Source of the DNA: a virus
Direction: 5' to 3' (one strand)
Length of the DNA stretch: 61,171 bases
IMG/VR virus record: IMGVR_UViG_3300032753_002656
Span: 1 to 61,171 of that record
In this document: positions 4,130-43,811 of the stretch, in pieces
Numbering within the stretch: position 1 is the stretch's first letter
How the letters are laid out: each line of letters starts with the position of its first letter
The notes under the pieces: generated by a model
What the model saw: the letters and a program-made list of their open reading frames with translations, nothing else
Database searches by the model: none
Told to the model about the DNA's origin: nothing
Position numbers and translations under genes: made by a program

Positions 4130-4348
4130 TTACTTAATACGTTCGAATATGAAATGAGGAATAGCATATATTCCATCTGATGATTTAAGTATTTCCATCT
4201 TTACAAAACATTCCCCATCTGGATAAACTTCTCCTTTTAATATAGAATAGCGTTCTGTAAAATTTGGGATTAGTATTTTACTAGAATCCACTCTATAAGA
4301 ACCATAAATTGCCCCATGAAAGTAATATCCATCTAAAAGTTTGTCCAT
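4130..4348 (-). CDS. R-I-K array protein 1 (most promoter-distal member)
   Basis: 72 residues. Starts with GYYFHGAIYGSY, the shared G-h-x-x-G-x-h-Y motif, and ends PHFIFERIK. Mostly beta-strand by pattern, no cysteine pair or membrane segment. It lies 6 nt after member 2 and is the last gene of the array before the separate promoter at 4057. Function unknown. Confidence 0.75.
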   Translation of the reverse strand: MDKLLDGYYFHGAIYGSYRVDSSKILIPNFTERYSILKGEVYPDGECFVKMEILKSSDGIYAIPHFIFERIK

Positions 4349-4354
4349 AAATAT

Positions 4355-4600
4355 TTATTTTATTCTCTCAAAAGGGAAAACAAGTTTCGCTAATCTAGAC
4401 CAAACCCCATCTTCGTTAAATCGAATATCAAGTTCACTACATTCGAAAATTGTAAAATCCACAAAAGTTTCCTCTAGTGGTTTGTCTATGTCAGAATTTT
4501 CTAGAGGATAGGATTTACTGTTATCCAAAAAAGGTAATATTATCCAGGGGTTTCTGTATATTCCATAAACTATACCATTCCGATAATAACCTCTTTCCAT
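4355..4600 (-). CDS. R-I-K array protein 2
   Basis: 81 residues. Opens MERGYYRNGIVYGIY, the clearest version of the N-terminal family motif (YYRNGIVYG), and ends KLVFPFERIK. The middle is acidic (EETFVDFTIFECSELD). 8 nt separate it from member 3. Function unknown. Confidence 0.75.
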   Translation of the reverse strand: MERGYYRNGIVYGIYRNPWIILPFLDNSKSYPLENSDIDKPLEETFVDFTIFECSELDIRFNEDGVWSRLAKLVFPFERIK

Positions 4601-4608
4601 TATTTAAT

Positions 4609-4869
4609 TTATTTTATTCTTCCAAATGGTACATGGGGATCTGCAAATTCACGAAATATACCTTCATCATTTTGTAGTAGTGGACCAGGAACAAGGTCAA
4701 AGTATATCTCACCCTCAAAATCATCAGACAAGGGATTAGGTGTAATCATTTTAAATGCTATCTTAGATGCAAGATTAAAAATTATAACTGTTCCCCTAGT
4801 TTGCTCTTCTTCCCAAACTTCCCCATTTTTATAAAATCCCTTCCTTATTTTTATTTGATTCTTCTCCAT
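4609..4869 (-). CDS. R-I-K array protein 3, start overlapping member 4
   Basis: 86 residues. FYKNGEVWEEE is the family N-terminal motif and VPFGRIK the tail. Its start codon lies inside the last codons of member 4 (19-nt overlap), so the DNA encoding W-R-R-I-K in one frame encodes M-E-K-N-Q-I-K in the next. Members 11 and 12 are arranged the same way. Function unknown. Confidence 0.75.
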   Translation of the reverse strand: MEKNQIKIRKGFYKNGEVWEEEQTRGTVIIFNLASKIAFKMITPNPLSDDFEGEIYFDLVPGPLLQNDEGIFREFADPHVPFGRIK

Positions 4870-5054
4870 GGAAAATTAATTTCCGCTTTTAGTGATTTTC
4901 TTCCTGTTTCAGTTTCAGTAGTTACTAAAAGATAGCTCACACGACCTACCCAATCGGGGCCTGGGGTGGGACCCTCTACACTAATAGCACTACCATGATT
5001 TGGAATAATCTGGTTATTCCAAAGTAAGCCGTATCCTATCTTATTATCTTCCAT
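4851..5054 (-). CDS. R-I-K array protein 4
   Basis: 67 residues, a short member. GLLWNNQIIPN is the N-terminal motif and EINFPWRRIK the tail. Its 3' end overlaps the start of member 3 by 19 nt in another frame. Function unknown. Confidence 0.75.
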   Translation of the reverse strand: MEDNKIGYGLLWNNQIIPNHGSAISVEGPTPGPDWVGRVSYLLVTTETETGRKSLKAEINFPWRRIK

Positions 5055-5067
5055 GTAATTAATACAT

Positions 5068-5286
5068 CTAGAACTTTACGTCTTTTACACCCTCACAATT
5101 ATCACCACGGGCAACTATGTTTTCATCTAGTACCCTCTTGTCTAATAGAGTCCTAAATGAGGAATGTTTCGCACATTCTATTCCTGCTGAGCTAGCAACA
5201 ACATATCTGCAACACTCATGTCCTTGTCCGGGTTTGCAGACATTATAAAAATGCTCATCGGGTATTGGATTAGTTAAATTTTCCAT
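5068..5286 (-). CDS. Cysteine-rich small protein, unrelated to the array
   Basis: 72 residues with CKPGQGHECCRYV, then CAKHSSFRTLLDKR, then ARGDNCEG. The five cysteines and the C-K-P-G-Q-G / A-x-G-D-N-C pattern recall a small protein I have seen in other phage and bacterial genomes without an assigned role. It may bind a metal ion. It ends KDVKF and lacks the R-I-K tail, so it looks inserted into the array. Stop codon TAG. Confidence 0.7.
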   Translation of the reverse strand: MENLTNPIPDEHFYNVCKPGQGHECCRYVVASSAGIECAKHSSFRTLLDKRVLDENIVARGDNCEGVKDVKF

Positions 5287-5292
5287 ATTTGT

Positions 5293-5538
5293 TTATTTAA
5301 TTCTTTCAAAGCTAATCAATGGGATTGCATATTTACTTATTTTACCAGTAATCATATTCTCGCGGTCCATAAAATATTTTGTCGTTAGTTCGAATTTTTG
5401 TCCAGATTGTTTTAGACACTCTAACATATTTTCAATATCTTTATGTAAGGGAAAAGTAATAATTGCTTCATTCTTGGTTCTTACCATACCAAAATCAAAT
5501 CCTCCTATAACAATTTTGGTTTGATATCTATATTCCAT
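5293..5538 (-). CDS. R-I-K array protein 5
   Basis: 81 residues. The N-terminus IVIGGFDFGMV is a weaker version of the family motif; the tail is PLISFERIK. Its ATG overlaps the stop of member 6 as TAATG, consistent with coupled translation. Function unknown. Confidence 0.75.
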   Translation of the reverse strand: MEYRYQTKIVIGGFDFGMVRTKNEAIITFPLHKDIENMLECLKQSGQKFELTTKYFMDRENMITGKISKYAIPLISFERIK

Positions 5539-5777
5539 TATTTAATTCGTTTAAATGGTACTAATGGTATTAATATTCTTTTTATAATATTCATTGGATT
5601 CCCTGTTGTAAGGGATTTCCCAATAAATTCAAGTTCGGTACGGGTTTCAAATAAAAAGCTTCTGTCTGAATCTATATTAAATCCATCTGCTATTCGGTAC
5701 ATGTAAACGTAATCATGTCTTCCATCCTGGCAAACGGGTATTAATTGGCCATTAAGAATTCTCGCTCTCTGTATCAC
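5538..5777 (-). CDS. R-I-K array protein 6 (GTG start)
   Basis: 79 residues. ARILNGQLIPV is the N-terminal motif and IPLVPFKRIK the tail. It begins with GTG inside the GTGA overlap with the TGA stop of member 7, so TGA is a real stop codon in this array. This matters when reading the in-frame TGA of member 15. Function unknown. Confidence 0.75.
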   Translation of the reverse strand: MIQRARILNGQLIPVCQDGRHDYVYMYRIADGFNIDSDRSFLFETRTELEFIGKSLTTGNPMNIIKRILIPLVPFKRIK

Positions 5778-6025
5778 TTAATCCTTTCAAATGTTAATAA
5801 TGGTATGGCAGTGCAAGAATCTCCGCCTTCTTCATAATAGGTTTCACACAATTCAAATAGTTGGCCTTCTGTTGGTATTGTTTCTGGATCTATTCCTACA
5901 TCCAATGTATAAAATGAACGGATCTCTCCAAGTTCATTATAAACAAGACCTTGTCCATATTTACATATAGTTCTTGAAATAATTATATATTTTCCATTAA
6001 CCCACTTTATTTCTGCAAATTTCAT
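5774..6025 (-). CDS. R-I-K array protein 7
   Basis: 83 residues. IKWVNGKYIII is the N-terminal motif and AIPLLTFERIK the tail, nearly identical to that of member 8. Stop TGA. The start overlaps the end of member 8 in an ATGA junction. Function unknown. Confidence 0.75.
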   Translation of the reverse strand: MKFAEIKWVNGKYIIISRTICKYGQGLVYNELGEIRSFYTLDVGIDPETIPTEGQLFELCETYYEEGGDSCTAIPLLTFERIK

Positions 6026-6318
6026 TTTATCCTTTCAAAGGTTAATAGTGGTTCTACTGTTGTTCCAAATCCCGCTAATACCCAACCATTATCAAGTAGC
6101 TCTGAATTTTCATGGGTTATGAAAGAAAAAGATATTCCCTCTGGTACATCCATATTAGGTAATATTTTCCAAGGTACTGGAGATAAATTTAATTTATTTG
6201 TTATATTTTCCTGTCCGAATGGAGTTATTAAATGAATTGTGCCATGAAGAACTATTCCTTGGTAAACTTTTAATTTACCTGTTGAAAATTCATAATCCCG
6301 TGAAAAATCTATATTCAT
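6022..6318 (-). CDS. R-I-K array protein 8
   Basis: 98 residues. VYQGIVLHGTIHLIT carries the G-h-h-x-x-G-x-h-h motif after a short N-terminal extension; the tail is VEPLLTFERIK. Both junctions are ATGA overlaps. The middle holds a D-V-P-E-G-x-S-F-x-F segment also seen as D-I-P-x-x-F/Y-x-F in several members. Function unknown. Confidence 0.75.
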   Translation of the reverse strand: MNIDFSRDYEFSTGKLKVYQGIVLHGTIHLITPFGQENITNKLNLSPVPWKILPNMDVPEGISFSFITHENSELLDNGWVLAGFGTTVEPLLTFERIK

Positions 6319-6623
6319 TTTATTCGTTCAAATTCTAAAATAGGATCAATAAATTTTCTAGTTACCAGCTTAAAATATTCTTTTTCCATTATCCCTGCTC
6401 TTTCTACGCACTCTTTATACACAATTCTAAAAATAAAGGGAATATCATTAAGAATAGGATATTCTTGAAATCCTAAAAGCCCCTCCATACCACAGCATTC
6501 TTCTATATTCCTTGTTATCTGTCCCATACTATTTAATAGCTCCCCTTGTTTATTGGTCAGATAAACAATATCATTTATTAAAATACCATAAAATAGTGTT
6601 GTCTCCTGAAACTCTCCCATCAT
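6315..6623 (-). CDS. R-I-K array protein 9 (longest intact member)
   Basis: 102 residues. FYGILINDIVYLT is the N-terminal motif, ILNDIPFIFRIV the central strand pair, DPILEFERIK the tail. It contains two adjacent cysteines (ECCG). Two possible starts (ATG at 6623 and 6620) both overlap the TGA of the upstream copy. Function unknown. Confidence 0.75.
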   Translation of the reverse strand: MMGEFQETTLFYGILINDIVYLTNKQGELLNSMGQITRNIEECCGMEGLLGFQEYPILNDIPFIFRIVYKECVERAGIMEKEYFKLVTRKFIDPILEFERIK

Positions 6624-6873
6624 TTGATTCTTTCAAATATTAGTAATGGCTCAATTATAGAATATATTTCATGCGTCATTAGACCATTTAAATTTAATTT
6701 GGCTCTTTGCTGATAGCTAAAAGTAAAATGAAATAATACACCAGGTGTAATAAAAGCTCCATATTTTATTTCTAAATATTCTCCAAGAGTTAAAATGGTC
6801 TATTACTAAGATCTAAGCAATTAATAATATTACCCTCTAATATTCCCCTGATTATTAATTCTTCTATTATCAT
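6620..6873 (-). pseudogene. R-I-K array member 10, disrupted by a frameshift
   Basis: From the ATG at 6873, which overlaps the stop of member 11 as ATGA, the frame reads LIIRGILEGNIIN (the family motif) for 27 codons and stops at TAA near 6792. Moving to the -1 frame just before this stop gives an open frame through VLFHFTFSY to EPLLIFERIK and a TGA at 6620-6622 in the usual ATGA junction. Both halves are thus preserved and only one indel separates them. The run around the shift (CCATTTTAAC) is not a classical slippery heptamer, so an inactivating indel or assembly error is likelier than programmed frameshifting. Confidence 0.75.
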
Positions 6874-7115
6874 TTTATTCTACTAAATTTAGGGGGAAGT
6901 ATATTCAGCTCAAGTATGTAAAGTCTTTGAAATTCATCAGGATCTCCTCCACTCCATATTTCTTGATATTCTATATAACCATCTATTTCTCTTGCCCATT
7001 CTGGAACACCAAAACCAGTTGGAATTTCTTCCATATTGCCATTAATTTTACTAATTAATATTTGGTAATGTGTCTTATTCTTTATACGCCCGCATTTTAT
7101 TTTGCTCTCTCCCAT
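6870..7115 (-). CDS. R-I-K array protein 11
   Basis: 81 residues from the ATG at 7115; an in-frame ATG at 7139 would add 8 residues but deepen the overlap with member 12. The chosen start gives a 19-nt overlap identical in layout to that of members 3 and 4, with M-G-E-S-K-I-K encoded across the W-E-R-A-K codons. The tail is LPPKFSRIK and the stop TGA is in an ATGA overlap. The N-terminal G-x-x-N-G motif is weak. Function unknown. Confidence 0.7.
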   Translation of the reverse strand: MGESKIKCGRIKNKTHYQILISKINGNMEEIPTGFGVPEWAREIDGYIEYQEIWSGGDPDEFQRLYILELNILPPKFSRIK

Positions 7116-7306
7116 ACAAATATTGGTTCTGCTACCCAATGTATAATAGGTTTATCTTTTACCTCTATTAAAATATCACCCTCAAATAATACAATACCAT
7201 CCGGAATTTTTTGAGCCATTATGAATAGACTTTTTGATAAAAATCCATCCTCACCAGAAATATATAATTCACCATTTATTAAGATACCTGCTGTTCTGAC
7301 TTTCAT
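7097..7306 (-). CDS. R-I-K array protein 12 (variant tail W-E-R-A-K)
   Basis: 69 residues. TAGILINGELYIS is a textbook version of the N-terminal motif. KIPDGIVLFEGDILIEV is the central strand pair. The tail is EPIFVWERAK, the only member with A in place of I. The 3' end overlaps member 11 by 19 nt. Function unknown. Confidence 0.75.
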   Translation of the reverse strand: MKVRTAGILINGELYISGEDGFLSKSLFIMAQKIPDGIVLFEGDILIEVKDKPIIHWVAEPIFVWERAK

Positions 7307-7324
7307 CCTATCCTGGATTATTAT

Positions 7325-7618
7325 TTATTTGATCCTTTCCCATTTCATTTGTATCTCTGCTTCGTATATGATTTTAGGATATCCAAAATCATCATGGATT
7401 TTTCCAAACTTTGAGATCTGATACATTTTACCTATAAATTCATAACTTCCATCTGGTATATCGGGATTAATAATATATCCTGTTTCCTTATAATGGAGAT
7501 CTCCATCAAAATCGATAAATTTATATAATTTTCCGTTTGCAACTAACCCATATTCAAGTTCACCAAACATTTTATCTCTATTAAGAAACAGGGAATCATA
7601 TCTAATGTCTTTCATCAT
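7325..7618 (-). CDS. R-I-K array protein 13
   Basis: 97 residues. LEYGLVANGKLYKF is the N-terminal motif after a 20-residue extension. DIPDGSYEFIGKMYQI is the central strand pair shared with members 9 and 12. The tail is AEIQMKWERIK. It stands 15-18 nt from each neighbour. Function unknown. Confidence 0.75.
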   Translation of the reverse strand: MMKDIRYDSLFLNRDKMFGELEYGLVANGKLYKFIDFDGDLHYKETGYIINPDIPDGSYEFIGKMYQISKFGKIHDDFGYPKIIYEAEIQMKWERIK

Positions 7619-7633
7619 ACACTAAAATTAGTA

Positions 7634-7933
7634 TTATTTTATACGTTCAAAATTAACAATAGGAATAGCATAAAATAAAGGACCCCCATAGCCTTTACCA
7701 TACTCGTCAAATTTTTGTCTCCTCGTTAATTCGAATTCATACTCTTCCTCAATTTTTAATCCTAATTTACTTAAACCCTTTGCTAGGGGGTAATATTTAA
7801 TGATATCACTATAACCGTTTCCTGTTTGTATTCGACAAACTCCTTTCCTAGTCCAGGAATATGTTCCCTGCAATATCCTATAAGAGATCCTATTATCCTT
7901 GATCCTTAATATCTCCCCCTCTTTCTGTGACAT
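7634..7933 (-). CDS. R-I-K array protein 14
   Basis: 99 residues. The tail is FYAIPIVNFERIK, preceded by EYEFELTRRQKFDEYG. This segment aligns with the end of member 15, including the codons beyond that copy's premature stop. Its ATG forms a TAATG overlap with the former stop of member 15. Function unknown. Confidence 0.75.
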   Translation of the reverse strand: MSQKEGEILRIKDNRISYRILQGTYSWTRKGVCRIQTGNGYSDIIKYYPLAKGLSKLGLKIEEEYEFELTRRQKFDEYGKGYGGPLFYAIPIVNFERIK

Positions 7934-7983
7934 TATTTAATCCGTTCGAAATTAACAATAGGTATACAATACCGAATTTGTCC

Positions 7984-8244
7984 TCAGTAACTTTTTACAC
8001 CGTTTTTATCAATCAATCTTTTAGTAATAGTTGTAAATTCAAATAAAATAATAGTCGAGGTTAATCCTTCTACACCTTCATAAATATTATATCTAAACCC
8101 CGGAACCAATCCTGCTTCTGTCTCAAACAATAAAGCAACTTTTTTATCTTCTTCCTGTTTGAATGATCCATATTGAATCTCCGTATGGATCGTTTTATAT
8201 ACATCCGAAGTATCAGTCTTTTCCAGGGTGTAGGTTTTTGGCAT
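7984..8244 (-). CDS. R-I-K array member 15, cut short by an in-frame TGA
   Basis: 86 residues ending KNGVKSY at a TGA (7984-7986). Beyond that TGA the same frame continues GQIRYCIPIVNFERIK to a TAA at 7933-7935, which overlaps the start of member 14 exactly as other junctions do. The ancestral gene therefore spanned 7933-8244 and has lost its tail by a nonsense change. Read-through or selenocysteine-type recoding would restore it, but TGA ends other members normally. The N-terminal motif is weak (EIQYGSFKQ). The start overlaps the upstream gene by 32 nt. Confidence 0.7.
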   Translation of the reverse strand: MPKTYTLEKTDTSDVYKTIHTEIQYGSFKQEEDKKVALLFETEAGLVPGFRYNIYEGVEGLTSTIILFEFTTITKRLIDKNGVKSY

Positions 8245-8647: not shown

Positions 8648-8941
8648 TTAATCAATTGTTGCGTTAATTCCGCGGTCAATAAATCCTTCTGCTAGGGGTT
8701 GAAGTGTTTCAAAATCCCCGCTCTTGACCCCACATTTACCCTTAAAGTGTATTATAAGAGTACACTGCTCTGCTTGCTCTTTGCTATGTTTACAAATTTC
8801 CATAAGAGATTGTATAACATGATCAAACGAGTTAACTTCGTCATTCCAAAGAATGAGGTTATGATTTTCTTTATTATTAATATCTGTAACCTCTAAAACT
8901 TGTTCTTCTATGTCGGGAGATCCCCAATTAATTATACCCAT
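8648..8941 (-). CDS. clpS: ClpS-like adaptor of the ClpAP protease
   Basis: 97 residues, the normal ClpS length. After a flexible N-terminus (1-27) it has the ClpS core: LILWNDEVNSFDHVI (29-43), then EQAEQCTLIIHFKGKC (55-70), then a C-terminal helix and strand ending DRGINATI. The N-degron pocket residues known from E. coli ClpS (Asn34, Asp35, His66) correspond to N33, D34 and H65, so substrate binding looks intact. NDEVN and QAEQCTLIIH are the Bacteroidota form, suggesting capture from a host. In bacteria ClpS delivers proteins with N-terminal Phe, Leu, Trp or Tyr to ClpA. It may redirect host ClpAP towards chosen targets (inference). Confidence 0.88.
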   Translation of the reverse strand: MGIINWGSPDIEEQVLEVTDINNKENHNLILWNDEVNSFDHVIQSLMEICKHSKEQAEQCTLIIHFKGKCGVKSGDFETLQPLAEGFIDRGINATID

Positions 8942-12573: not shown

Positions 12574-12829
12574 TGGGAGTATATGATATTACTGGAAAAT
12601 CCAGATAGCCAAAAATAAATTGATTAGTTTCTGCTTTGAAGTATAAAGATCCTTCATAAATTTTCTGTTGCAATAGATCTACCAAAAAATGTCGGACCTC
12701 TTTTTTTTGTACCATCTGGGCAAACAGCTGTTTATTGGGGGTGTCTTTTAGAACTTTTTGTATAATTTTACCCGATAATAAACCTCCATTGTCAGTAAAA
12801 GTTTTCCGAAATTGAGCCACTGTTAACAT
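12554..12829 (-). CDS. Hypothetical protein
   Basis: 91 residues, helical N-terminus with FRKTFTDNGG, then QKKEVRHFLVDLLQQKI and a beta end (SLYFKAETNQFIFGYLDF). Not recognised. The promoter at 12849 lies 19 nt upstream, so it leads a two-gene operon with the zinc-ribbon protein. Confidence 0.55.
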   Translation of the reverse strand: MLTVAQFRKTFTDNGGLLSGKIIQKVLKDTPNKQLFAQMVQKKEVRHFLVDLLQQKIYEGSLYFKAETNQFIFGYLDFPVISYTPNDMQVR

Positions 12830-12848
12830 TGAAATTACATTTAGTCTT

Positions 12849-12871
12849 GCAAATGTAATAAAAAATATCTG
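12849..12871 (-). promoter_or_regulatory. Putative promoter (GATAT-N7-TACATTTG)
   Basis: Minus-strand reading GATAT, 7 nt, TACATTTGC with an upstream T-tract. Perfect Bacteroidota -7 box. Lies in the divergent region between 12829 (-) and 12942 (+). Confidence 0.6.
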
Positions 12872-12928
12872 AAGTAAAAAATATTTTTTGAACTTTTTCT
12901 TTAGCTGTGTATTATAGTCTAATAGGCC

Positions 12929-12938
12929 AGATATATAA
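12929..12938 (+). promoter_or_regulatory. AGATATATAA element 3 nt before a start codon
   Basis: The 10-mer AGATATATAA ends 3 nt before the ATG at 12942. The same element at the same distance precedes 13144, 19095 and 38669. It is too close to be an ordinary -10 box with a leader, so it is either a translation-initiation element or a promoter making leaderless mRNA. Confidence 0.5.
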
Positions 12939-12941
12939 GAA

Positions 12942-13127
12942 ATGAAACATCTTATACCAATACATTTATTTGAATGGAATATACCAGGGGATGCTACTGG
13001 TGATGGTAGTATGATGGCTCAAAATCCTAGAATCCCGGATACAATTTCCATAAAAAAATATAGTGATGAGTGGCAAAAGAAACCTTGTAGGAAATGTAAG
13101 AAAAAAGGATTAAAGAGAGGAAGGTAA
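12942..13127 (+). CDS. Small hypothetical protein with basic C-terminus
   Basis: 61 residues, ending in a strongly basic CRKCKKKGLKRGR tail with one CxxC, following a P/G-rich middle (NIPGDATGDGSMM). It opens the plus-strand cluster. Could bind nucleic acid; nothing more can be said. Confidence 0.55.
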   Translation: MKHLIPIHLFEWNIPGDATGDGSMMAQNPRIPDTISIKKYSDEWQKKPCRKCKKKGLKRGR

Positions 13128-13130
13128 AGA

Positions 13131-13140
13131 AGATATATAA
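13131..13140 (+). promoter_or_regulatory. AGATATATAA element 3 nt before a start codon
   Basis: Fills most of the 16-nt gap between the stop of the 12942 gene and the ATG at 13144. An intra-operon position argues for a translational rather than a promoter role. Confidence 0.5.
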
Positions 13141-13143
13141 AAA

Positions 13144-13713
13144 ATGAATACTAGCAAACCATCCGGTTATAAATTAAAAGGTCCACAAGCTGGAATTGAT
13201 CTAGAAACACCAGAAGAAGGTACAAGAGCTGTAGTTAAATCTCCACAGGGAGAAATGAGCCAAGACAACATAATTCAAAAGTTACAAACTGGTGATTATG
13301 AAGGGGCCAAAAAATTAGTTAATGATTTATTAGCTTTTGATGGAACAGAGGAAGAGAATGAATTGATCAAAGGGATCCTATTGCAGGTGGAAGATTATTT
13401 AAAGACATTAGAACCAGAGAAAAGAAAAGAGATCAAGGCGGCAGTTATGGGTGATGATACGCCAGGAGGAAAAACAAACCCTAAATATGTAATGGAAAAA
13501 ATGAGCAAATTAAACAATTACTCTGAATTTGTGGGTAAAGTTAATGAACAAGTAACGGCGGATTTAAAATCTTTACCATTCGAAAAAGTTTTATCCATGT
13601 TCGAAACTTTAGTAAATAGTTTAGCTACTAAAACTAAGACCCCTGCAGACGAGCAACAACTTAATGATCTTAGAGCAGAATTAACATCAAGGAGAGATCC
13701 AAGCAAACATTAA
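13144..13713 (+). CDS. Hypothetical protein, probably structural or scaffolding-like
   Basis: 189 residues, acidic and helix-rich, with a Gly/Pro-rich N-terminus (NTSKPSGYKLKGPQAG) and an internal low-complexity Asp/Gly stretch (MGDDTPGGKTNPK). No cysteine, membrane helix or catalytic motif. Sits between the small basic protein and the glycosyltransferase. A virion role is only a guess. Confidence 0.55.
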   Translation: MNTSKPSGYKLKGPQAGIDLETPEEGTRAVVKSPQGEMSQDNIIQKLQTGDYEGAKKLVNDLLAFDGTEEENELIKGILLQVEDYLKTLEPEKRKEIKAAVMGDDTPGGKTNPKYVMEKMSKLNNYSEFVGKVNEQVTADLKSLPFEKVLSMFETLVNSLATKTKTPADEQQLNDLRAELTSRRDPSKH

Positions 13714-13726
13714 TAAGAACATACAT

Positions 13727-14791
13727 ATGGAAAAGGCTAAGGTCCTATTTATCCTCAAAAGGAGAGAGGATTATAACATTGAAAAACACACTAAAATAGG
13801 TCTTATCACTGGCTTATTTAACTCGGCATCTTTTATGAACCAAATGTTAGTTGATGCTGGCATTGATTCAAATCTTGAAGTTGTTATAGATAATAATGAT
13901 ATTGATAGGCAGGTAAATAAATATAAGCCCACACATGTGATCATTGAGGCCCTTTGGGTAGTACCTTCCAAATTTTCAGTCCTTTGTAAACTGCACCCAA
14001 ATGTTAAATGGATTATTCGTTTACATAGTGAAATTCCATTCTTAGCAAATGAGGGTATGGCAATGGATTGGATTGGTGATTATATTGAATTTCCAAATCT
14101 TTATATTGGAGCTAATGCTCCAAGGGCATTAAAAGAGGTAAGATTTTTTGCTGCTCATAAAATGGAATGGGATGAAATAACAGCAGAGGAGAGAATTATT
14201 TATTTTCCTAATTACTATCCACAGGATTATAAAAAGAAAGAATTAGATAAAGAGAAAGATTGGATTGATATAAGTTGTTTTGGTGCTATCAGGCCACTTA
14301 AAAACCACGTACTTCAAGCATTAGCAGCTATTCAATTTGCAGACAAGATCGAAAAGAAACTTCGATTCCATGTAAATTCAGGTAGGATTGAAATGAACGG
14401 GAGTCCGGTGCTAAATAATTTAAAGGGATTATTTGAGCAACTACATGAAAAAGGACACCAATTAATCAATCATGAATGGACGGATCGAGAAGGATTTTTA
14501 GAATTATGTGGTAAAATGGATATTGGTATGCAAGCTTCTATTACGGAAACGTTTAATATAGTTGGTGCGGATCTAATTAGTCAAGGAGTTCCTCTAGTAG
14601 GTTCTAGTGAAATTCCATGGGCTGCTAATTTCTTTTGTGCTAATCCAGTAGAAAGCGATGATATTTGCTCTGCCCTCATGAGAACTTATAGATTCCCCCA
14701 AACAAATGTTTGGCTAAATCAATACCTATTAAAAAGATATACTAATAAGACCAAAAATATTTGGGTAAAATACTTTACTAATCATATATAA
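13727..14791 (+). CDS. Glycosyltransferase, GT-B fold
   Basis: 354 residues. The C-terminal half carries the family 1/4-like signature: DISCFGAIRPLKNH (about 184-197, start of the nucleotide-sugar domain), then GFLELCGKMDIGMQ, ASITETFNIVGADLISQG and VPLVGSSEIPW, with the E-x-F-x-x-x-x-x-E-like loop (SITETF) that contacts the donor. The N-terminal half has a Rossmann-like pattern (THVIIEALWVVP). It could modify phage DNA bases, virion proteins or host surface glycans; the acceptor cannot be read from sequence. No base-hydroxylase gene lies beside it. Confidence 0.8.
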   Translation: MEKAKVLFILKRREDYNIEKHTKIGLITGLFNSASFMNQMLVDAGIDSNLEVVIDNNDIDRQVNKYKPTHVIIEALWVVPSKFSVLCKLHPNVKWIIRLHSEIPFLANEGMAMDWIGDYIEFPNLYIGANAPRALKEVRFFAAHKMEWDEITAEERIIYFPNYYPQDYKKKELDKEKDWIDISCFGAIRPLKNHVLQALAAIQFADKIEKKLRFHVNSGRIEMNGSPVLNNLKGLFEQLHEKGHQLINHEWTDREGFLELCGKMDIGMQASITETFNIVGADLISQGVPLVGSSEIPWAANFFCANPVESDDICSALMRTYRFPQTNVWLNQYLLKRYTNKTKNIWVKYFTNHI

Positions 14792-15063: not shown

Positions 15064-15429
15064 ATGACTATTTTCAATCCAGAGAATAAACAGGTCCTTA
15101 CGTTTAAAGAGTTATTAGATCCTGCAATGGAAATTAAGGAAAATGAGGATGCTAAACAATATCTTGCAAGTTATGTAGAATGGCTAGAAGCTGCATGGCT
15201 ACGTGACGGTAAGATAGAAAAAGAGCCTGCTATTAATATAGCCAAATCTAATTTAGGATATTGGGCAGGTTATTATTCTGAATCCACAAGAAAGAGAGTA
15301 GAAAACCTTTTTGAATGTGAACATCCTATATTTGGGTCAATAGAGAAAAACGGCAGGCCTACTGCAGAGGAAGCATTAAAATTAGGTATTAAGATGGGAG
15401 AAGAATCCATCAAAAGGAATTTAAAATAG
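15064..15429 (+). CDS. Hypothetical protein
   Basis: 121 residues, helical and acidic. NLGYWAGYYSESTRKRVENLFECEHPIFG is the most conserved-looking part and recalls small phage and bacterial proteins that lack an assigned function. Single-gene transcript from the promoter at 15027. The 3' end overlaps the convergent 15421 gene by 9 nt. Confidence 0.6.
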   Translation: MTIFNPENKQVLTFKELLDPAMEIKENEDAKQYLASYVEWLEAAWLRDGKIEKEPAINIAKSNLGYWAGYYSESTRKRVENLFECEHPIFGSIEKNGRPTAEEALKLGIKMGEESIKRNLK

Positions 15430-15903
15430 ATCCCCCTGTTTAGGTATTGGAGGAGTCGGGGTAATTTCCGGCTCCTTATATTTGTGGGCATTTTTTTTAA
15501 CCCATTCCTGTAAATGCTTTTCAATTTCTATATCAGGACCCCTTAAAATCTCATAATTAGCTATTTTTGTTAATTGGCCAGAATAATAATACATCTTAGA
15601 TCTTAGTTGCTCCATTTCCAAAGGATTTAGGGAATGATATGCAATAACCTTTGCTCCTAATTGGCACCAATAATCCATATCCCTCCTATCAAATCCAAAT
15701 CCATCATTTATACCGTTTCCTATGCTAAGCAAATACATCCACAATAAACCTTTAATTCTATTAGTATCACATTCTAAAGAAATCAAAGATCCATATCCTA
15801 AGGATTTATCCATATCATCCCTTGTGATTTCTTTCACTGGAGTAACCTTCTTAATTAGCCATTCGTTGATAAATTCTATAAAGGGTTTAATCTTTTCCAT
15901 CAT
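15421..15903 (-). CDS. Protein of unknown function with capsid-targeting-like N-terminus
   Basis: 160 residues (two adjacent ATGs, 15903 and 15900). The second gives MEKIKPFIEFINEW, matching the M-x-x-I-K-x-F-x-x-F-I-N-E signature of four other proteins here and resembling T4 capsid-targeting peptides cleaved after I/L-x-E. The rest has a Trp/Tyr-rich core (RRDMDYWCQLGAKVIAYH) and a proline-rich end. An AGATATATAA element is 6 nt upstream. It may be packaged in the head (inference). Confidence 0.6.
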   Translation of the reverse strand: MMEKIKPFIEFINEWLIKKVTPVKEITRDDMDKSLGYGSLISLECDTNRIKGLLWMYLLSIGNGINDGFGFDRRDMDYWCQLGAKVIAYHSLNPLEMEQLRSKMYYYSGQLTKIANYEILRGPDIEIEKHLQEWVKKNAHKYKEPEITPTPPIPKQGDLF

Positions 15904-17444: not shown

Positions 17445-18956
17445 TTATTTATATAAACCAATCGACATACGATGGAGGGATTCGTTCCTGCCTAAAATTT
17501 CCATTGTTGTTAATAGATCTGGCCCAGGTATTCCCTTCCCTACCAATTTACGTAATTCTGGCATAATAAATTTCTCTTTCTCGCCATGCACAAGCGCTAC
17601 CTTATCAAGTATCTCTTTTATTTTATCCTTTTTCCAATCTAAATGATGTACGCTAAGTCCCAATTTAATAATATCCTGAAGCATAACCATTTCTGTAGTC
17701 CAAACTATAGGATTATTACCTTCTTCCTTTGGAGGTAATAATCCACGATTAAATATTTCTACTACCTTATTAAGATCTGAAAATAATACACTTCTGGCTT
17801 TGGCCAGATTAATAATTTGTTCTTGCTTTTCTTTGTTATCATTATAGAAAGGATCAATGTATACCTTATCCAAAAGAACTGAATTAGGAAGGATATTACT
17901 AATATATTGGCTATTGAAATATTTAGCTTTCTCAATGTCAAATTTAGCACCTCCAAGATGAACGTCTGATAGCTCAAACATTTCTATCATGTCTTCCATA
18001 GACATCATCTCATTATGTATTTTTGGAGTCCATCCTAAAAGGACTAAAAAGTTCAGTAGTGCGGAGGGATCATAGCCAAGCTCCATAAATCCATTACTTC
18101 CTACTACGGATCCGTCATCATTTATCATAACAGCATCCATTGGAAATACTGGTACTCCTAATTTGATAGCACTTCTTTTAGAAAGCTTACCCTTCCCATT
18201 AGGATTAAGTATTAGTGGAAGATGTGCAAATTCTGGTGTATCCCAGCCCATAGCTTCATAAATAAGATAATGGAGACCAAGGGATGAAAGCCATTCTTCT
18301 CCCCGAATAACATGAGTTGTCCCCATATCATGGTCATCCGCACAATTGGCAAGATGATAAGTTGGTATACCATCAGATTTAACAAGGACTTTATCATCCA
18401 TGTCATTTGTGTTATATTTAATTGGTCCCCTAATAATATCATTAACTATGAACTCTCGATTTTCTGGGGTTTTAAAACGAATGACATAAGGTCCATTTAG
18501 CATCTCCCTTACTTCATTTACATTCATAGTTAATGAGTTTCTCATTGTCATTCGAAACTTGGAATTATAAATGAAATTGGTATGTCCCTTTTCCCCCATA
18601 TTACTTAATCTCGCATTCTCAATATATTCGGGAGTATCGAAGGCATAGTAAGCATGGCCTGTTAGTAACAATTTGTTAATATGTTCAGTATAATCCCTTT
18701 CTGATTGACGATATTTTTTACAACCATCTATCCAAGGGGCAGCATCTGGTATAAGTCCAAACCATTCCAAAGAATTTTTGATATACTCCTCTGCATCAGA
18801 AACAAATCTTTTAGTATCAGTATCCTCAATACGAACATAAAAGGTTCCTTCGTGCTTTTTTGCGAAAAGGTAATTATATAATGCAGTCCTAATTCCTCCA
18901 ATATGGAGGAATCCGGTCGGACTTGGCGCGAAGCGGGTAACAACTTTTTTATTCAT
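17445..18956 (-). CDS. gltX: Glutamyl-tRNA synthetase
   Basis: 503 residues, full length for bacterial GluRS. HIGH motif in RFAPSPTGFLHIGGIRTAL (residues 8-26), VRIEDTDTKR (41-50), the acceptor-stem Zn-less region, HVIRGEEWLSS (215-225), and KMSKS-equivalent KLSKRS (257-262). The C-terminal anticodon-binding domain is complete. KLSKRSAIKLGVPVFP is of the Bacteroidota type. Activates glutamate and charges tRNA-Glu. Served by the promoter at 18977; together with AspRS, ArgRS-like and MetRS it forms an unusual phage synthetase set. Confidence 0.95.
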   Translation of the reverse strand: MNKKVVTRFAPSPTGFLHIGGIRTALYNYLFAKKHEGTFYVRIEDTDTKRFVSDAEEYIKNSLEWFGLIPDAAPWIDGCKKYRQSERDYTEHINKLLLTGHAYYAFDTPEYIENARLSNMGEKGHTNFIYNSKFRMTMRNSLTMNVNEVREMLNGPYVIRFKTPENREFIVNDIIRGPIKYNTNDMDDKVLVKSDGIPTYHLANCADDHDMGTTHVIRGEEWLSSLGLHYLIYEAMGWDTPEFAHLPLILNPNGKGKLSKRSAIKLGVPVFPMDAVMINDDGSVVGSNGFMELGYDPSALLNFLVLLGWTPKIHNEMMSMEDMIEMFELSDVHLGGAKFDIEKAKYFNSQYISNILPNSVLLDKVYIDPFYNDNKEKQEQIINLAKARSVLFSDLNKVVEIFNRGLLPPKEEGNNPIVWTTEMVMLQDIIKLGLSVHHLDWKKDKIKEILDKVALVHGEKEKFIMPELRKLVGKGIPGPDLLTTMEILGRNESLHRMSIGLYK

Positions 18957-23491: not shown

Positions 23492-24667
23492 TTAAACTTT
23501 TTCTATCTCATACATTCCCAATAACTTCATTCCATGTATTAGATCATCTAATAAAGGCTGGAATAATATTTGATTTTCTGGATTATCCTTAATATGATTA
23601 GTAATATATAATTGATTAATTAGTTTTGCATGCTCGACTAACTCATCAAATAACAAATTTGGAGCTATTAATGTTCTAGCCTTTAATAGCTTAAACTCTA
23701 AAACATTACTATTGAATTCTTCAATCCTCTGAGGTTTAAGTCCTGCAGATTTGATCCTTGCGAGAGTATAGCTAAGATACAAGCCAAAAGAAGTTTTGAC
23801 GTTATCAATTTGATTCATTTTAATATCCTTCATGGAAGATAGATCATATTTGAGTATATGACCACATAAAACATTCCATGTTAGATCAAAATCATTATTA
23901 AACTTCTCTTGTACTTGTTTTAGAATCTCTGCCATTAGAATAACATTTCCCTCTGACGATGACATTTTCTTCCCATCAACTGTTACCAAACCAAGCCCAA
24001 TATGTTTAATATCAGGAAACATATCCTTTAATAAAGAAAAATGCCCATTTTGCTCTAATCCCGTAACGTATAAGGTTGGAGAATTTAATTTAGTTGCTAA
24101 AGCTACATCCTGGTAAAAATATGTACTAACACCTGTTGATTTTAAACCTACTATTTTTTGATCCCCAATCTCAAATATTTTTGTCCCTTCATAGTCTCCT
24201 GTACCCTCTTTGAGAGAAGAAGAATCTAATGTTTGGGCAGAGGCGAAATAAATGTCGTCTATATAATAGTCATACTGCATACAATAATATTTATATGCCT
24301 TAAGAGCTTCATCCTTAGTAACAGAACCCTCCAAAGTGTCCCCTAAGATAGCAATAGTTTTTTCTGTAATTCCTAAACATTGTAATGTTTTGGCAATGAT
24401 CAAATTAGATAGATGCCCTAAATGGAGTTCCTTATTTAGGTTAGGACTAAAAAAATCTCCATATTTATAAATTTTAGGTTCCTCAAAAAGATCTTTAATA
24501 TTAACACCTAATGGTAGTGTGATATTATTGTACGGACCAGTAGATTGAATTTTTAAGCCCCAATATTTTATCCATTCTAGAATTTCTTCTGTTGGATCTC
24601 CATAAACAGAAAAACCAAAAGTTAAATTTTTTGGAACAAGCTTTATTTTATTTATGTTGAGCCTCAT
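23492..24667 (-). CDS. Arginyl-tRNA synthetase-like protein, short form
   Basis: 391 residues from the ATG at 24667. A TTG 24 nt upstream also opens the frame but lies inside the promoter. Class I core: FFSPNLNKELHLGHLSNLII (residues 72-91, HIGH motif as HLGH 82-85 in the ArgRS-type S-P-N-x-N-K-x-L-H-L-G-H context), TYFYQDVALATKL (182-194), and KKMSSSEGNVI (233-243) as KMSKS. SYTLARIKSAG (C-terminal part) matches the ArgRS anticodon-binding region. Typical ArgRS has about 550-580 residues, so the N-terminal additional domain and part of the C-terminus are missing or strongly reduced. May charge tRNA-Arg or a phage tRNA. Confidence 0.75.
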   Translation of the reverse strand: MRLNINKIKLVPKNLTFGFSVYGDPTEEILEWIKYWGLKIQSTGPYNNITLPLGVNIKDLFEEPKIYKYGDFFSPNLNKELHLGHLSNLIIAKTLQCLGITEKTIAILGDTLEGSVTKDEALKAYKYYCMQYDYYIDDIYFASAQTLDSSSLKEGTGDYEGTKIFEIGDQKIVGLKSTGVSTYFYQDVALATKLNSPTLYVTGLEQNGHFSLLKDMFPDIKHIGLGLVTVDGKKMSSSEGNVILMAEILKQVQEKFNNDFDLTWNVLCGHILKYDLSSMKDIKMNQIDNVKTSFGLYLSYTLARIKSAGLKPQRIEEFNSNVLEFKLLKARTLIAPNLLFDELVEHAKLINQLYITNHIKDNPENQILFQPLLDDLIHGMKLLGMYEIEKV

Positions 24668-24687
24668 TATTATAACTTTATTACATA

Positions 24688-24710
24688 GCAAATATAATAA
24701 AAAGTTTCTG
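24688..24710 (-). promoter_or_regulatory. Putative promoter (GAAAC-N7-TATATTTG)
   Basis: Minus-strand GAAAC, 7 nt, TATATTTGC: near-perfect form of the shared promoter. A TTTAAC-like site is farther upstream than in the 20-nt group. It would drive 24667 down to 19767. Confidence 0.65.
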
Positions 24711-26567: not shown

Positions 26568-27044
26568 CTATAAATTTTTATTAAACAAATTATTTATGGT
26601 TTCCCATTTTGAATATGTTGTATCAGTCTCACCCTCATATCGATTATATAGGGTCTGGAAATCCTTTGACATGTCCTCTATCCAATCCCATTCTCCTTTA
26701 TCCACTAAATCAAGAAAATAATTTAGTTGTTCGTGAGTTCCATATAAATGGTAAATTCTTGATAAATCTTCGTGGCTATATCTAAATCCATCAATTTTAA
26801 ATATGCCAAACTGACAATTTTCTTGATCCTCTGGCCAAATTGCATAGGTAAAATTACCTTTCCTAAACCAGATCATACCAAAGCCATGATTTCCAATTCC
26901 CTGATATCCACGTTTTATTAACTTATTTTTGATAATTTCTACTTCCTTCTTTAACCAATCAATTAACATTTCCTCGTGTATTTCATCGGGAACGCTAAAC
27001 ATATCACGAGTAAAGTCAGAAAAAACTATTTCATTATTTTCCAT
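26568..27044 (-). CDS. Hypothetical protein
   Basis: 158 residues, rich in Trp/Tyr/Asp. RGYQGIGNHGFGMIWFRKGNFTYAIWP and DKGEWDWIEDMSKDFQ are the most distinctive parts. No motif or membrane helix. Overlaps the start of the next gene downstream of 29826 by 11 nt. Confidence 0.55.
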   Translation of the reverse strand: MENNEIVFSDFTRDMFSVPDEIHEEMLIDWLKKEVEIIKNKLIKRGYQGIGNHGFGMIWFRKGNFTYAIWPEDQENCQFGIFKIDGFRYSHEDLSRIYHLYGTHEQLNYFLDLVDKGEWDWIEDMSKDFQTLYNRYEGETDTTYSKWETINNLFNKNL

Positions 27045-29826
27045 CTTTAGTTGTATTAAATAATCTAACAGGAGATTGAGGTTCCTTTAGAATATCACGA
27101 GCTCTCCTAAACGTTAAGGTTATACGATAATTAATCAAAGTTGTTTCTCCTACTTTATTACCACCTTCATCCCAAACAGGAACAATAATTGATTTAGTCT
27201 TAGTGTTTTGTGTATTTTCCGATACTCGATGGTTAAAAGTAAATCTGTTTACACCATTGATACCAAATGCGTATATTCCGCCATTTTTAATTACTAAGCT
27301 ATTAATCTTTTCTGGATTTTTTTCAAAAACAGAATAAGTATTTTCATTTAAATCATATTTAGTTTCATCTGAAAAATCTGTATGGTACATTAAACTTCCT
27401 TCGGCACCTAAATTTATAACAACAACCGGATAATTTTTTGCGGTAATACTTTCTGTTATATCTCTATGCTGGTGTATAAAAGATCCAGGTTCGTAAATAT
27501 TAGCAAGAACCGAATCATAATCTTTCAAATCAATTCCTAATTTTTCTTGTATGAAATTCATGATTGGTTGAAGCTTCTTTATACTCGGTAAAGGCTTGTT
27601 ATTTTGGTCCGTTACATAATATCCATACCCATCATATTTGGCCGGTGCCTTTATAACAACTCTTCCTGGCCTTTGTTGTAATCCTAATTTTCTCTGATAA
27701 CTTTTTTCTGACTCATTTGGAATATTCTTAGCCCATCTTAGGCCGAAGGAAAACATTCTATTAGCAGTATAAGCTCGGTTCTCAACATATGCTTGATTAA
27801 GTATTTGTGGCTGTAAGAGGTCTATAAAATTATTAGCTTCCTCTAAAGAGAGACCAGTATCTGCTATATTTTCAACACCAGGATAAGGTGAATAAATTTT
27901 ATCAGAACCTTTGGGCTCTTCTTGTTTTGTTGATTGGGATAAAGCATATGTACACTTAGAAGACCTAGACATAGCTACATACATCTCCGAATTTAGGTTT
28001 TCTATTTTATCGGGGCTTTCCTTTAAACGATTTCTCCAATAATGATTTCTCCCTTCGATATTATCCAGATCAACAATAGTATTTTCATAAGTAGCTCCTT
28101 GGGATTTATAAGCAGTTATAGCATAACCATAATCTATGGATTTTTCTTTAAACAAAGATGCTTTCCTTTTTGTTATTTCAACAAATTCTAAAATTTGTTC
28201 GTAAGTTAGCCTCTTATCTGCTAATCTCATCTTAACATTTCTTTCAATCTCGCTTTCACTAATTAGTTTATTATTATAACGATAAATGTTTTCATTTGTT
28301 TGTAAAGTAGCACTAAGTAATTTCAATGCGCTTTCTATTGGAAGTATTTTTTCTCGCCAAAATTCTTTTCTTTTCTTATACTCTAGCTTCTTTTGTTCTT
28401 TTTTAAGAGCCTCTACTCTATCATAGAGGAGATTGAATAATTCACCAGTCCTATCAAATTCTTTGACGTGATCCGGATCCTTCATATCAAAGATAAACAT
28501 TATCATCTTTACTGGATCAAATATACTATCACTCTCTGTAATTTCTAAGGTATAGGGAATAAGTGATAAGTCCTTCTTCCCCAATTCAGATAGCATACGA
28601 GCAATTTGCTGTTTACCACTATTAAGTGTACCTAAAGTAAAATCATCCAAGCCAACCTTTTGTCCATTTTTAAGGGTAGTATTAACCATTTCTAATAATC
28701 CAATAGGTTCTGTCTTAATAGAATTTACAATATACTCCTGGGAATTATAAAATATTTCTACACTTTGGGAATAACCCATAAGTGTATCTCCGACGCTATA
28801 TGAATATTCACCAACATCAAGACCAAGAAGGCCTCTTACCATTTTGTTGTATTGGGAAACCTTTTCATTAGACTTTGCCACTATTTTAACAAATGCCCTA
28901 TTTTCTTGGTATTTTGGATCTGTATACAATTTAGTAATTATATCACCGATTGTATTTGAGTAAATGATCCCCTCCCCATCGGGACCTACTCTAGTTAGAT
29001 ATGACAGGGGTGAGTGTACACTGCGTATATTGTTGCGTAGCTCTGTTAATTCCTCTATTAAAGGATTATCTTTGCCCGTGCGCATTACCTCCCTTAAACC
29101 GACAGAATGCGTTACATTATGTGAACTAAAAAGGGGAGATAATTTTTGGGTTCCTGGATTTCTTAATTGTGCTGGATCCCCCATAACAATAACAGGGATC
29201 ATACGGGAGTAGTATTTTACTTTCTCTATTTCTCCTGGATCCGATATCATCGATACTTCATCAATTACCCAAAGGGAAACAACAGGAACCCCGCTTTTAA
29301 CTAATTTACTATACCCAGCAGTAGCTTCTATATCTTTAGTATATTCCATACCACCATGAGTATTAAGAACTAATTGTGTTTGGAAAGCTGCTTGTGTAGT
29401 AAATGTTCTAGCTTTGAAAAATTCTCTGGCATTAGGACCAGAGATATAGTCTACTAGTTTTTGATTAAATTTATTCCGAACCTGCATAGTTCGGATTGAT
29501 TTAAATAGTTGCTTTCTTGCTTGGTGTGAGGGGGCAGAAATGGCAAATCCCTTACCTATTTTCTTACTATCTACTAGATATTGTAGAAAAAATTTAATAA
29601 CAGAGGTTTTTCCAACTCCAGCAAATCCCTTGACAAGAAATATGTTATCCTCTCCAGTTCTATTTTTTCTGGTATCCCACCAATGATATAACTCTTCCAA
29701 TAACTTTTCCTGCTGAGAAGAAAGACCTTTTGGAAATGGTATATCAATAATACATCCATCTGGAAATTTATATTGATGTTTTTCCCGAATTATTTCTACT
29801 ATTTTATCTTTTGATGGCTCTACCAT
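27034..29826 (-). CDS. Dda-type helicase fused to an AlkB-like 2-oxoglutarate/Fe(II) dioxygenase
   Basis: 930 residues with two enzyme modules. Residues about 35-640 are an SF1B (RecD/Dda) helicase: Walker A GFAGVGKTS (67-75), DEVSM (189-193), GDPAQLRNPG (216-225), and the C-terminal motif YAITAYKSQGATYENTIVD (568-586) with VAMSRS (617-622). Residues about 720-910 look like an AlkB-family dioxygenase: NIYEPGSFIHQHRD with Fe ligands H787-x-D789, distal H866 in FTFNHRV, and 2-oxoglutarate-binding R in NYRITLTFRR (R901/R907). No other residue is obviously missing. T4 Dda opens duplex DNA at forks; AlkB removes alkyl groups from bases. The fusion suggests repair or base modification tied to unwinding. 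It overlaps its neighbours by 7 and 11 nt. Confidence 0.9.
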   Translation of the reverse strand: MVEPSKDKIVEIIREKHQYKFPDGCIIDIPFPKGLSSQQEKLLEELYHWWDTRKNRTGEDNIFLVKGFAGVGKTSVIKFFLQYLVDSKKIGKGFAISAPSHQARKQLFKSIRTMQVRNKFNQKLVDYISGPNAREFFKARTFTTQAAFQTQLVLNTHGGMEYTKDIEATAGYSKLVKSGVPVVSLWVIDEVSMISDPGEIEKVKYYSRMIPVIVMGDPAQLRNPGTQKLSPLFSSHNVTHSVGLREVMRTGKDNPLIEELTELRNNIRSVHSPLSYLTRVGPDGEGIIYSNTIGDIITKLYTDPKYQENRAFVKIVAKSNEKVSQYNKMVRGLLGLDVGEYSYSVGDTLMGYSQSVEIFYNSQEYIVNSIKTEPIGLLEMVNTTLKNGQKVGLDDFTLGTLNSGKQQIARMLSELGKKDLSLIPYTLEITESDSIFDPVKMIMFIFDMKDPDHVKEFDRTGELFNLLYDRVEALKKEQKKLEYKKRKEFWREKILPIESALKLLSATLQTNENIYRYNNKLISESEIERNVKMRLADKRLTYEQILEFVEITKRKASLFKEKSIDYGYAITAYKSQGATYENTIVDLDNIEGRNHYWRNRLKESPDKIENLNSEMYVAMSRSSKCTYALSQSTKQEEPKGSDKIYSPYPGVENIADTGLSLEEANNFIDLLQPQILNQAYVENRAYTANRMFSFGLRWAKNIPNESEKSYQRKLGLQQRPGRVVIKAPAKYDGYGYYVTDQNNKPLPSIKKLQPIMNFIQEKLGIDLKDYDSVLANIYEPGSFIHQHRDITESITAKNYPVVVINLGAEGSLMYHTDFSDETKYDLNENTYSVFEKNPEKINSLVIKNGGIYAFGINGVNRFTFNHRVSENTQNTKTKSIIVPVWDEGGNKVGETTLINYRITLTFRRARDILKEPQSPVRLFNTTKDGK

Positions 29827-30446
29827 AAATTTAATTGATCCTCTTTAGGTGGAACTAATAATTCACCAAGTCCATACATTAATTGGCTTGTTTCGTCGCC
29901 CTGAAAAGTAAAAGGGTTTTTATCTCCATCACAGAGTTTTTCTGTCCTCTTGATTAGAAATTCTCGGAGGAGAAGATTTTCCAAAAAATTAGTATAAACC
30001 TTATGAAGGCCTAATCCAGAATAAATGAGATCTAATTCAATGTTACCTTTACCATTAGTTCTAATTAATGGTGTTCCTATTATGCCAGGAGTTAAAATCC
30101 TTCTAACGTTATACTCATAATAATAACCAACATTGTATTCTATTAGGTATGAGATTTTTTTATTAAGTATTGGTGTTACTCCGATGAAAAGATCGCTAGT
30201 TTCTTTAATACCCGGATATGAAACCACAATTTTAGAGGTAATATTTTTCATACGAGAACCACTATAAACAAAATCCTCCATAACAAATGTAGGTATTGGT
30301 ACTTGGAATAAATCCATCGTTAAAATATCTAATCCACCATGTGTTTCTTTCAAAACATCATTGGTGTGTAGAAGTATAATCCTTGTTGCTATTTCTGGTT
30401 TCATTCGGTCCAGATCATTCATTTTAAATCTGGCCATAGTTATCAT
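29820..30446 (-). CDS. Hypothetical protein
   Basis: 208 residues, mostly beta (KIVVSYPGIKETSDLFIG, YLIEYNVGYYYEYNVRRILTP) with a C-terminal helix. No cysteines or catalytic motif recognised. Lies between the helicase fusion and MetRS with 4-7-nt overlaps. Confidence 0.55.
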   Translation of the reverse strand: MITMARFKMNDLDRMKPEIATRIILLHTNDVLKETHGGLDILTMDLFQVPIPTFVMEDFVYSGSRMKNITSKIVVSYPGIKETSDLFIGVTPILNKKISYLIEYNVGYYYEYNVRRILTPGIIGTPLIRTNGKGNIELDLIYSGLGLHKVYTNFLENLLLREFLIKRTEKLCDGDKNPFTFQGDETSQLMYGLGELLVPPKEDQLNLW

Positions 30447-31864
30447 GGTATCTTTTCAAATAAGATTACTTTTTTCCTTTCTCTTAATGCTTTATCTATA
30501 ATCTCTGCTTTATTCGGGAACACTGGAACGTATAATCTTGAAACTGTCCAGATCAAATGATAGCAATCGCTTAATATTCTTTTTACTCTCTCCGGATCTG
30601 TTTCTGACCAAGGCTTATGATCGTTAATGTATTTATTTCCATAAGAAACTAATTCTGCTGTTCTTGCCAATGCTTCTTTTATTTGAAACTTATTCCAAAG
30701 ATCCGTTATATTTTTTTCCCCATCTACTAAAATTTTAAAAAAGTCTGGTGTTACAGAAGTAAAATATTCCCCTTCGCATTTTGTATCCATTAAATGTAAT
30801 ACCCTGGATATAAAATTACCCCATGAATTACAAATATCAGCATTAAATTTCAATCTTAGATCTTCCTCATTCCAGCTAGAGTCAGAGTAAGTGGATAATC
30901 CAGCCAAAGCGTAATATCTAACTGCATCCAGGCCAAATTTATTTAGTTGATCTATCGGGTCTATTACATTACCCTCTGTTTTGGACATTTTTTTACCATT
31001 ACTATCCACTATAGTTCCATGAACTAATAATTTATTTGTTTTCCTAAAATGTAATGCATCCAACATTCCCTGGAATATAATAGCCTGAAATCTGAGATTG
31101 TCTGGACCGCATATTTGGATGATATTAGTATCTTCGTGATTCCACAATTCGTTTGCTGCAATAACATAATTAAGTAATGCATCAAACCAAACGTATATGA
31201 CATGTTCAGGATCATCAGGTACTTCAACACCCCATGGGCATTTTGCTTTTAGTCGGGATATTGAAATATCTCCGGTCTCTTCGATCATATTGATCAATTC
31301 CCCCCTTTTATATTGAGGCTCTAGAAAAGATGGACTATTTTTAAGCCAAGTTAGAAGTTTTTCTTTGTGATCTCCAAGCCTAAAGAAATAATTTTCTTCT
31401 TCAACCTCATCTAAAGTAAGTGTATGATGATCCGGACATTTACCATCAACAAGTTCTTTATCCTGCTTAAATGATTCACACCCCACACAATATAGAGATT
31501 TGTAAGGCTTTTTATAAATTTCATTACGCCCCATAAAAACATGCCAAAATCCCTGGACAAATTCATGATGTTTTGGATCTGATGTTAAGTAGAAATTGTC
31601 ATACTTAATATCAAACTTACCACAAAAATCTTTCCATATAGGTTCTAGGGTCTTAATATACTCATGTGGTGTAATACCAAGCTCGTCTGCTTTTTGTTTT
31701 ATTTTTGTACCATGGCAATCTAATCCAGTATTAAAAAAAACTTCATTATTTTCCAGCCTAAAGTATCTGGTGATAGCGTCACCTAATACAAATTCGAACA
31801 TATGACCTATATGAGGTATAGAATTTGCATATGGTAAAGTAGTTGTTAAGAATATTTTTCCCAT
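30443..31864 (-). CDS. metG: Methionyl-tRNA synthetase
   Basis: 473 residues. HIGH motif TTLPYANSIPHIGHMFEFV (8-26), knuckle zinc site CVGC ... CPDH (126-129 and 143-146), KMSKTEGNVIDP (292-303), and a C-terminal helical anticodon-binding domain (YINDHKPW). It lacks the C-terminal dimerisation domain that many bacterial MetRS carry. Charges tRNA-Met, initiator included. Short overlap with the previous gene. Confidence 0.95.
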   Translation of the reverse strand: MGKIFLTTTLPYANSIPHIGHMFEFVLGDAITRYFRLENNEVFFNTGLDCHGTKIKQKADELGITPHEYIKTLEPIWKDFCGKFDIKYDNFYLTSDPKHHEFVQGFWHVFMGRNEIYKKPYKSLYCVGCESFKQDKELVDGKCPDHHTLTLDEVEEENYFFRLGDHKEKLLTWLKNSPSFLEPQYKRGELINMIEETGDISISRLKAKCPWGVEVPDDPEHVIYVWFDALLNYVIAANELWNHEDTNIIQICGPDNLRFQAIIFQGMLDALHFRKTNKLLVHGTIVDSNGKKMSKTEGNVIDPIDQLNKFGLDAVRYYALAGLSTYSDSSWNEEDLRLKFNADICNSWGNFISRVLHLMDTKCEGEYFTSVTPDFFKILVDGEKNITDLWNKFQIKEALARTAELVSYGNKYINDHKPWSETDPERVKRILSDCYHLIWTVSRLYVPVFPNKAEIIDKALRERKKVILFEKIP

Positions 31865-37987: not shown

Positions 37988-38007
37988 AAGAACAATTATT
38001 TAATTAT

Positions 38008-40919: not shown

Positions 40920-40937
40920 CTTATTGGGTTTAATTAA

Positions 40938-43808: not shown

Positions 43809-43811
43809 AAA

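Follow-up and report, generated by a model that had tools for sequence, protein, structure and literature searches.

The window analyzed here is an entire IMG/VR virus record of 61,171 bases. Between positions 4130 and 8244, it carries a tandem array of small genes, and 15 minus-strand reading frames there, 13 of them intact, end in [F/W]-x-R-[I/A]-K. This bears out the sequence-only reading of the region, which had described about 15 small genes with a common tail. Copy 1 (7933–8244) has an in-frame TGA at 7984–7986, followed downstream by CIPIVNFERIK, and the A1 profile matches 7936–8097 across this TGA (E 2.5e-5). A recoded TGA was ruled out, since five array genes (copies 5 to 9) terminate in TGA and it is thus an ordinary stop here. 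Next come copies 2 (7634–7933, 99 amino acids, ending in NFERIK), 3 (7325–7618, 97 amino acids, KWERIK), 4 (7097–7306, 69 amino acids, VWERAK), and 5 (6870–7115, 81 amino acids, KFSRIK). Copy 6 (6620–6873, ending in IFERIK) carries a frameshift in a T run near 6790, possibly through an error of assembly. Copies 7 (6315–6623, 102 amino acids, EFERIK), 8 (6022–6318, 98 amino acids, TFERIK), 9 (5774–6025, 83 amino acids, TFERIK, with the top profile score), 10 (5538–5777, 79 amino acids, with a GTG start, PFKRIK), and 11 (5293–5538, 81 amino acids, SFERIK) follow. The Cys-rich gene at 5068–5286, also on the minus strand, lies within the array and is not a member of it; its 72-residue product ends in KDVKF, lacks the tail, scores no higher than its shuffles, and has no known relatives. 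The array closes with copies 13 (4851–5054, 67 amino acids, PWRRIK), 14 (4609–4869, 86 amino acids, PFGRIK), 15 (4355–4600, 81 amino acids, PFERIK), and 16 (4130–4348, 72 amino acids, IFERIK), the last of which has no immediate downstream start. Most of the array proteins are acidic. Directly upstream, on the same minus strand, is a gene for a ClpS-type protease adaptor (8648–8941; PF02617, E 2.6e-18), and the surroundings of the array consist of small non-structural genes.

It is most likely, judging from sequence, that these are old paralogues whose bodies have strongly diverged and whose end has remained fixed. In a leave-one-out HMM comparison, 14 of the 15 score above all 300 of their own shuffles, copy 5 being the only one whose full-length score fails to do so. 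When the last eight residues are removed, only copies 3, 14, and 15 exceed all of their own shuffles and several others exceed most; the last eight residues carry most of the homology signal of the array. The copies closest to each other are the neighbors 14, 15, and 16 and also 2, 9, and 11. The sequence-only reading had further placed the motif G-h-x-x-N-G-x-h-Y near the N-terminus of every copy. A degenerate form of this hairpin motif is present in 10 of the 15 copies, compared to 0.5% of shuffled bodies (the motif was derived from the same copies on which it was scored), which makes “every” an overstatement.

The view that these proteins belong to no described family held up, as no significant match was found in Pfam, PHROG, NCBIfam, PADLOC, IMG/VR, or the PDB (by sequence). 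Profiles from the first four gave best E values of 0.02 to 0.12, for single members only, the PDB sequence search returned nothing significant, and the copy 9 protein had no match in phages or IMG/VR. Searches of IMG/VR at the DNA level gave 53 matches to a single FERIK-ATG pattern and 65 to a paired-tail pattern, with no array in the former on inspection and none in the latter. Neighboring genes were followed as well. The neighbor protein phrog_1735 occurs at 80 viral and 6 genome loci without the array, and the glycosyltransferase at 13727–14791 occurs at 26 loci, none of them with the array, the tags, or a common gene order, so that gene is merely widespread. A scan with the glutamyl-tRNA synthetase (GluRS) returned no relative.

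Predicted structures had been suggested as a check, as had a test of whether the tail is exposed. A first AlphaFold2 model of an array protein was poor (pLDDT 57). For copy 4, with 14 copies as input, AlphaFold2 gave a five-stranded small barrel (pLDDT 71, pTM 0.45). The tail, for example the final WERAK of copy 4, lies outside the strands in both of these low-confidence models. In a fold search with the copy 4 model, OB proteins were among the top PDB matches at E >0.1, and there was no significant viral match.

The closest relatives of the window's large terminase come from Sphingomonas phage PAU, a 642-kb metagenomic phage, and Tenacibaculum phage PTm1, and by this sequence relationship the record is part of the genome of a large T4-like phage. 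The host is probably a member of the Bacteroidota, to judge from the terminase relatives together with flavobacterial and crAss-like helicase matches. A sibling virus is represented by two contigs that overlap over 22 kb with 99.995% identity, and its DNA corresponds to the right part of the window, mostly at 70–90% identity. Four proteins of the window (15421–15903, 38669–39361, 50016–50531, and 51862–52836) have N-termini of the form M-x-K/R-x-K-x-F-x-x-[F/Y]-[I/L/V]-x-E, similar to the capsid targeting sequence (CTS) of T4. The sibling orthologues of three of them have such N-termini too, the sequences of these proteins otherwise differ, and they are possible injected head proteins.

The tail is not confined to the array. 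The protein encoded at 52854–53153 (minus strand), which represents a second family with a body unrelated to the array, ends in DPIFIRIK, and its orthologues in the sibling are three tandem small proteins ending in PVFERIK, PEFERIK, and PPFERIK. An alignment of this family used as a query matched no array copy, and its tail probably comes after a helix. The third family comprises three minus-strand genes at 45188–45373, 45377–45571, and 45577–45801, whose products end in TPKFETIK, LPSFSQIK, and APPFGTIK, respectively, with a relative in the sibling ending in PKFEPIK. A suspected resemblance of this family to Cse60-like proteins (PF10957) was dropped, as there was no profile match at E 10. Another small protein, whose hydrophobic N-terminus is by eye a probable membrane anchor, is encoded at 37748–37993 (minus strand) and ends in TRFELIK; its sibling orthologue ends in AHFEVIK. 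The third family and this membrane-type protein are the looser matches, because they lack the Arg at position −3. The sibling also encodes a mini P-loop protein (phrog_1828; contig L214, 1577–1912) that ends in VFFRRIK. Its other matches are in Clostridioides and Streptococcus phages, where the protein has a different ending; in the sibling, the tail is carried by an extension of 17 residues beyond the domain common to the other phages.

Counted over the window and the sibling together, 11 of 190 non-array genes end in [F/W]xxIK, compared to 1 of 2382 background genes from 80 other large-phage loci (Fisher p = 3e-12), with the caveat that this pattern was widened after the data had been seen. 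The eleventh of these genes encodes an aminotransferase-like protein whose ending, YFSKIK, may be due to chance. The pattern is found in at least four sequence-unrelated families of small proteins, and when the four are counted once, p is about 1.5e-6. With the stricter [F/W]xRIK, there are two unrelated non-array families compared to 0.006 genes expected. At the DNA level, FERIK followed by a stop occurs nine times in the window and three times in the sibling (whose second contig is not part of this tally), and 29 other phage records lack it. The tag has been seen in only two related viruses, both of which are known as fragments, and an array could lie in the left part of the sibling, outside its two contigs.

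Two accounts of the fixed end had been offered by the sequence-only reading, namely a conserved last strand of a small barrel and a terminal tag that a single partner recognizes. Since the same ending is found on bodies unrelated in sequence, a portable tag is now favored and the conserved last strand disfavored. We consider it reasonably probable that the tail is a portable C-terminal tag read by one common partner. The tag could be written [F/W]-(E)-x-I-K-COOH, with Arg favored at −3, and would be used by one T4-like large-phage lineage. Its carriers would be the roughly 15 diversified, small, beta-rich proteins of the array and several unrelated tiny proteins. Each variable body would be the working or target-binding part, and the common tail would bring all of the bodies to one partner, probably a host or phage machine.

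One could also take the tail to be no more than the end piece of a single fold, conserved for the sake of folding. The N-terminal hairpin motif common to array copies, the five-stranded look of the barrel, and the weak OB-like matches would all suit this explanation, as would the small barrel-like proteins of another phage, whose common hFTK ending is perhaps explained by their fold. It was dropped once the tail turned up on sequence-unrelated families, and both low-confidence models also speak against it by placing the tail outside the strands, which leaves it quite unlikely. A further explanation looks to the DNA rather than the peptide: a repeat at the gene junctions could serve as a translation-start or recombination element, the peptide being a by-product. 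The ATGA, GTGA, TAATG, and 19-nt overlaps between array genes are as first described, and most tails overlap or adjoin the next start codon. However, the synonymous changes reported in the tail are real (AGA, AGG, CGT, CGA, and CGG for Arg; ATA, ATT, and ATC for Ile; TTT and TTC for Phe), with the Arg and Ile codons varying freely and the third positions being the least conserved in the tail. No downstream gene is coupled to copy 16, moreover, and isolated genes carry tails too. It is therefore the peptide that is conserved and not the DNA; the codon pattern largely refutes the DNA element, to which we give hardly any credence.

If the tail is a docking tag, the first candidate for its partner would be a host Clp-type AAA+ protease, as with the adaptor SspB docking on ClpX. 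A Clp partner is proposed because the ClpS gene lies directly upstream and because SspB docks on ClpX via a C-terminal peptide. In E. coli, this peptide docks on the zinc-binding domain of ClpX (PMC12373786), and the tail of Pseudomonas SspB likewise docks on ClpX (PMC13251409). Phage ClpS proteins are thought to deliver targets to host ClpAP (PMC7824862). Like the array proteins, SspB has a small folded body and a short C-terminal peptide ending in hydrophobic-x-x-[V/I]-K; E. coli SspB ends in LRVVK and the array in F-x-R-I-K. The likeness is weak, since 29 of the 2382 background genes (1.2%) have a hydrophobic-x-x-[I/V]-K ending and the array bodies are not SspB. The SspB domain (PF04386) had no match in the window in a search that was positive in E. 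coli and Caulobacter, and the array profile did not match E. coli SspB. The array proteins also differ from SspB in having no long linker and many bodies for one tail, and ClpX docking is only a candidate here. By this analogy, a Clp protease is a tentative and rather doubtful choice of partner. It is speculative that the array bodies bind host defense proteins, and the view of the sequence-only reading that such proteins face changing host defenses stays an inference. An unlikely further step would make the array a set of natural degraders, with some 15 heads that each catch another host protein and a tag that docks on a host AAA+ protease. If true, one phage would be redirecting host proteolysis at many targets.

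A protease could also read the tail in order to destroy its carriers. The tail would then be a degron through which a host protease soon removes the small early proteins and limits the time in which they act. C-terminal degrons are known, such as the ssrA tag (AANDENYALAA) and the basic MuA tail RRKKAI, which is read by ClpXP (PMC8138137), and a degron would fit both the unrelated early proteins and the ClpS encoded nearby. However, the tail has no Ala-Ala ending, every array copy ends in Lys, unlike the ssrA type with its small non-polar last residues (LAA), and the aromatic residue kept at −5 points to a specific pocket, which a degron could have as well. We regard the degron as improbable. 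Another way to use a common end would be as a signal for packaging into the virion, a C-terminal counterpart of the T4 CTS, with the tagged proteins injected against host defense in the manner of T4 IPI. The CTS of the T4 internal proteins IPI to IPIII resembles the tail here in being one short terminal peptide on divergent small phage proteins. Some of the T4 proteins act against host defense; IPI, for example, inhibits a restriction enzyme (PMC9026906). The T4-like terminase of this phage would fit as well. The T4 signal, however, is N-terminal, cleaved by gp21, and directs packaging, whereas the array tail sits at the C-terminus and belongs to the encoded end. The CTS-like N-termini of the window are on four other proteins and on none of the tagged ones, the T4 internal proteins are basic whereas most array proteins are acidic, and the genes around the array are small and non-structural. 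Packaging is for us a highly improbable role of the tail.

An expansion of small paralogues within a single lineage of large phages is also seen in Bacillus phage G, which has about 35 zinc ribbons (PMC7824862). The array proteins differ in not being zinc ribbons and in having a C-terminal tag that is found on unrelated families too. ClpS adaptors are encoded by other phages (PMC7824862, PMC6102473), and here the ClpS gene is directly upstream of the array; the array proteins themselves are not ClpS, and their signal is C-terminal, not N-terminal. As a docking tag, a five-residue peptide on unrelated small proteins would be a functional handle on genes that homology cannot annotate, and identifying its reader would give some twenty unknown proteins one common pathway. 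It also suggests a simple search elsewhere for C-terminal peptides that are common to non-homologous genes of one phage genome.

Some other features of these genomes were seen along the way. Three genes of the window, at 17445–18956, 23492–24691, and 30443–31864, were read by eye as glutamyl-, tryptophanyl-, and methionyl-tRNA synthetases, respectively, and there is no tRNA gene in the whole record. The 930-residue protein encoded at 27034–29826 resembles Dda-type helicases in its N-terminal part and, by eye, AlkB-type dioxygenases in its C-terminal part. At 39528–42110 and 42138–44819 are adjoining duplicate gene pairs that by eye resemble a MoxR-type AAA+ ATPase and a vWA protein; both vWA proteins end in VVKTEFQ and cross-match at the DNA level. 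In another 200-kb virus (L060), five small proteins encoded at 4631–4867, 6815–7233, and 12697–13193 end in hydrophobic-F-T-K, with two tandem pairs among the five and bodies that resemble small barrels. The fold may account for this ending, but the five proteins could also be a second example of a shared end.
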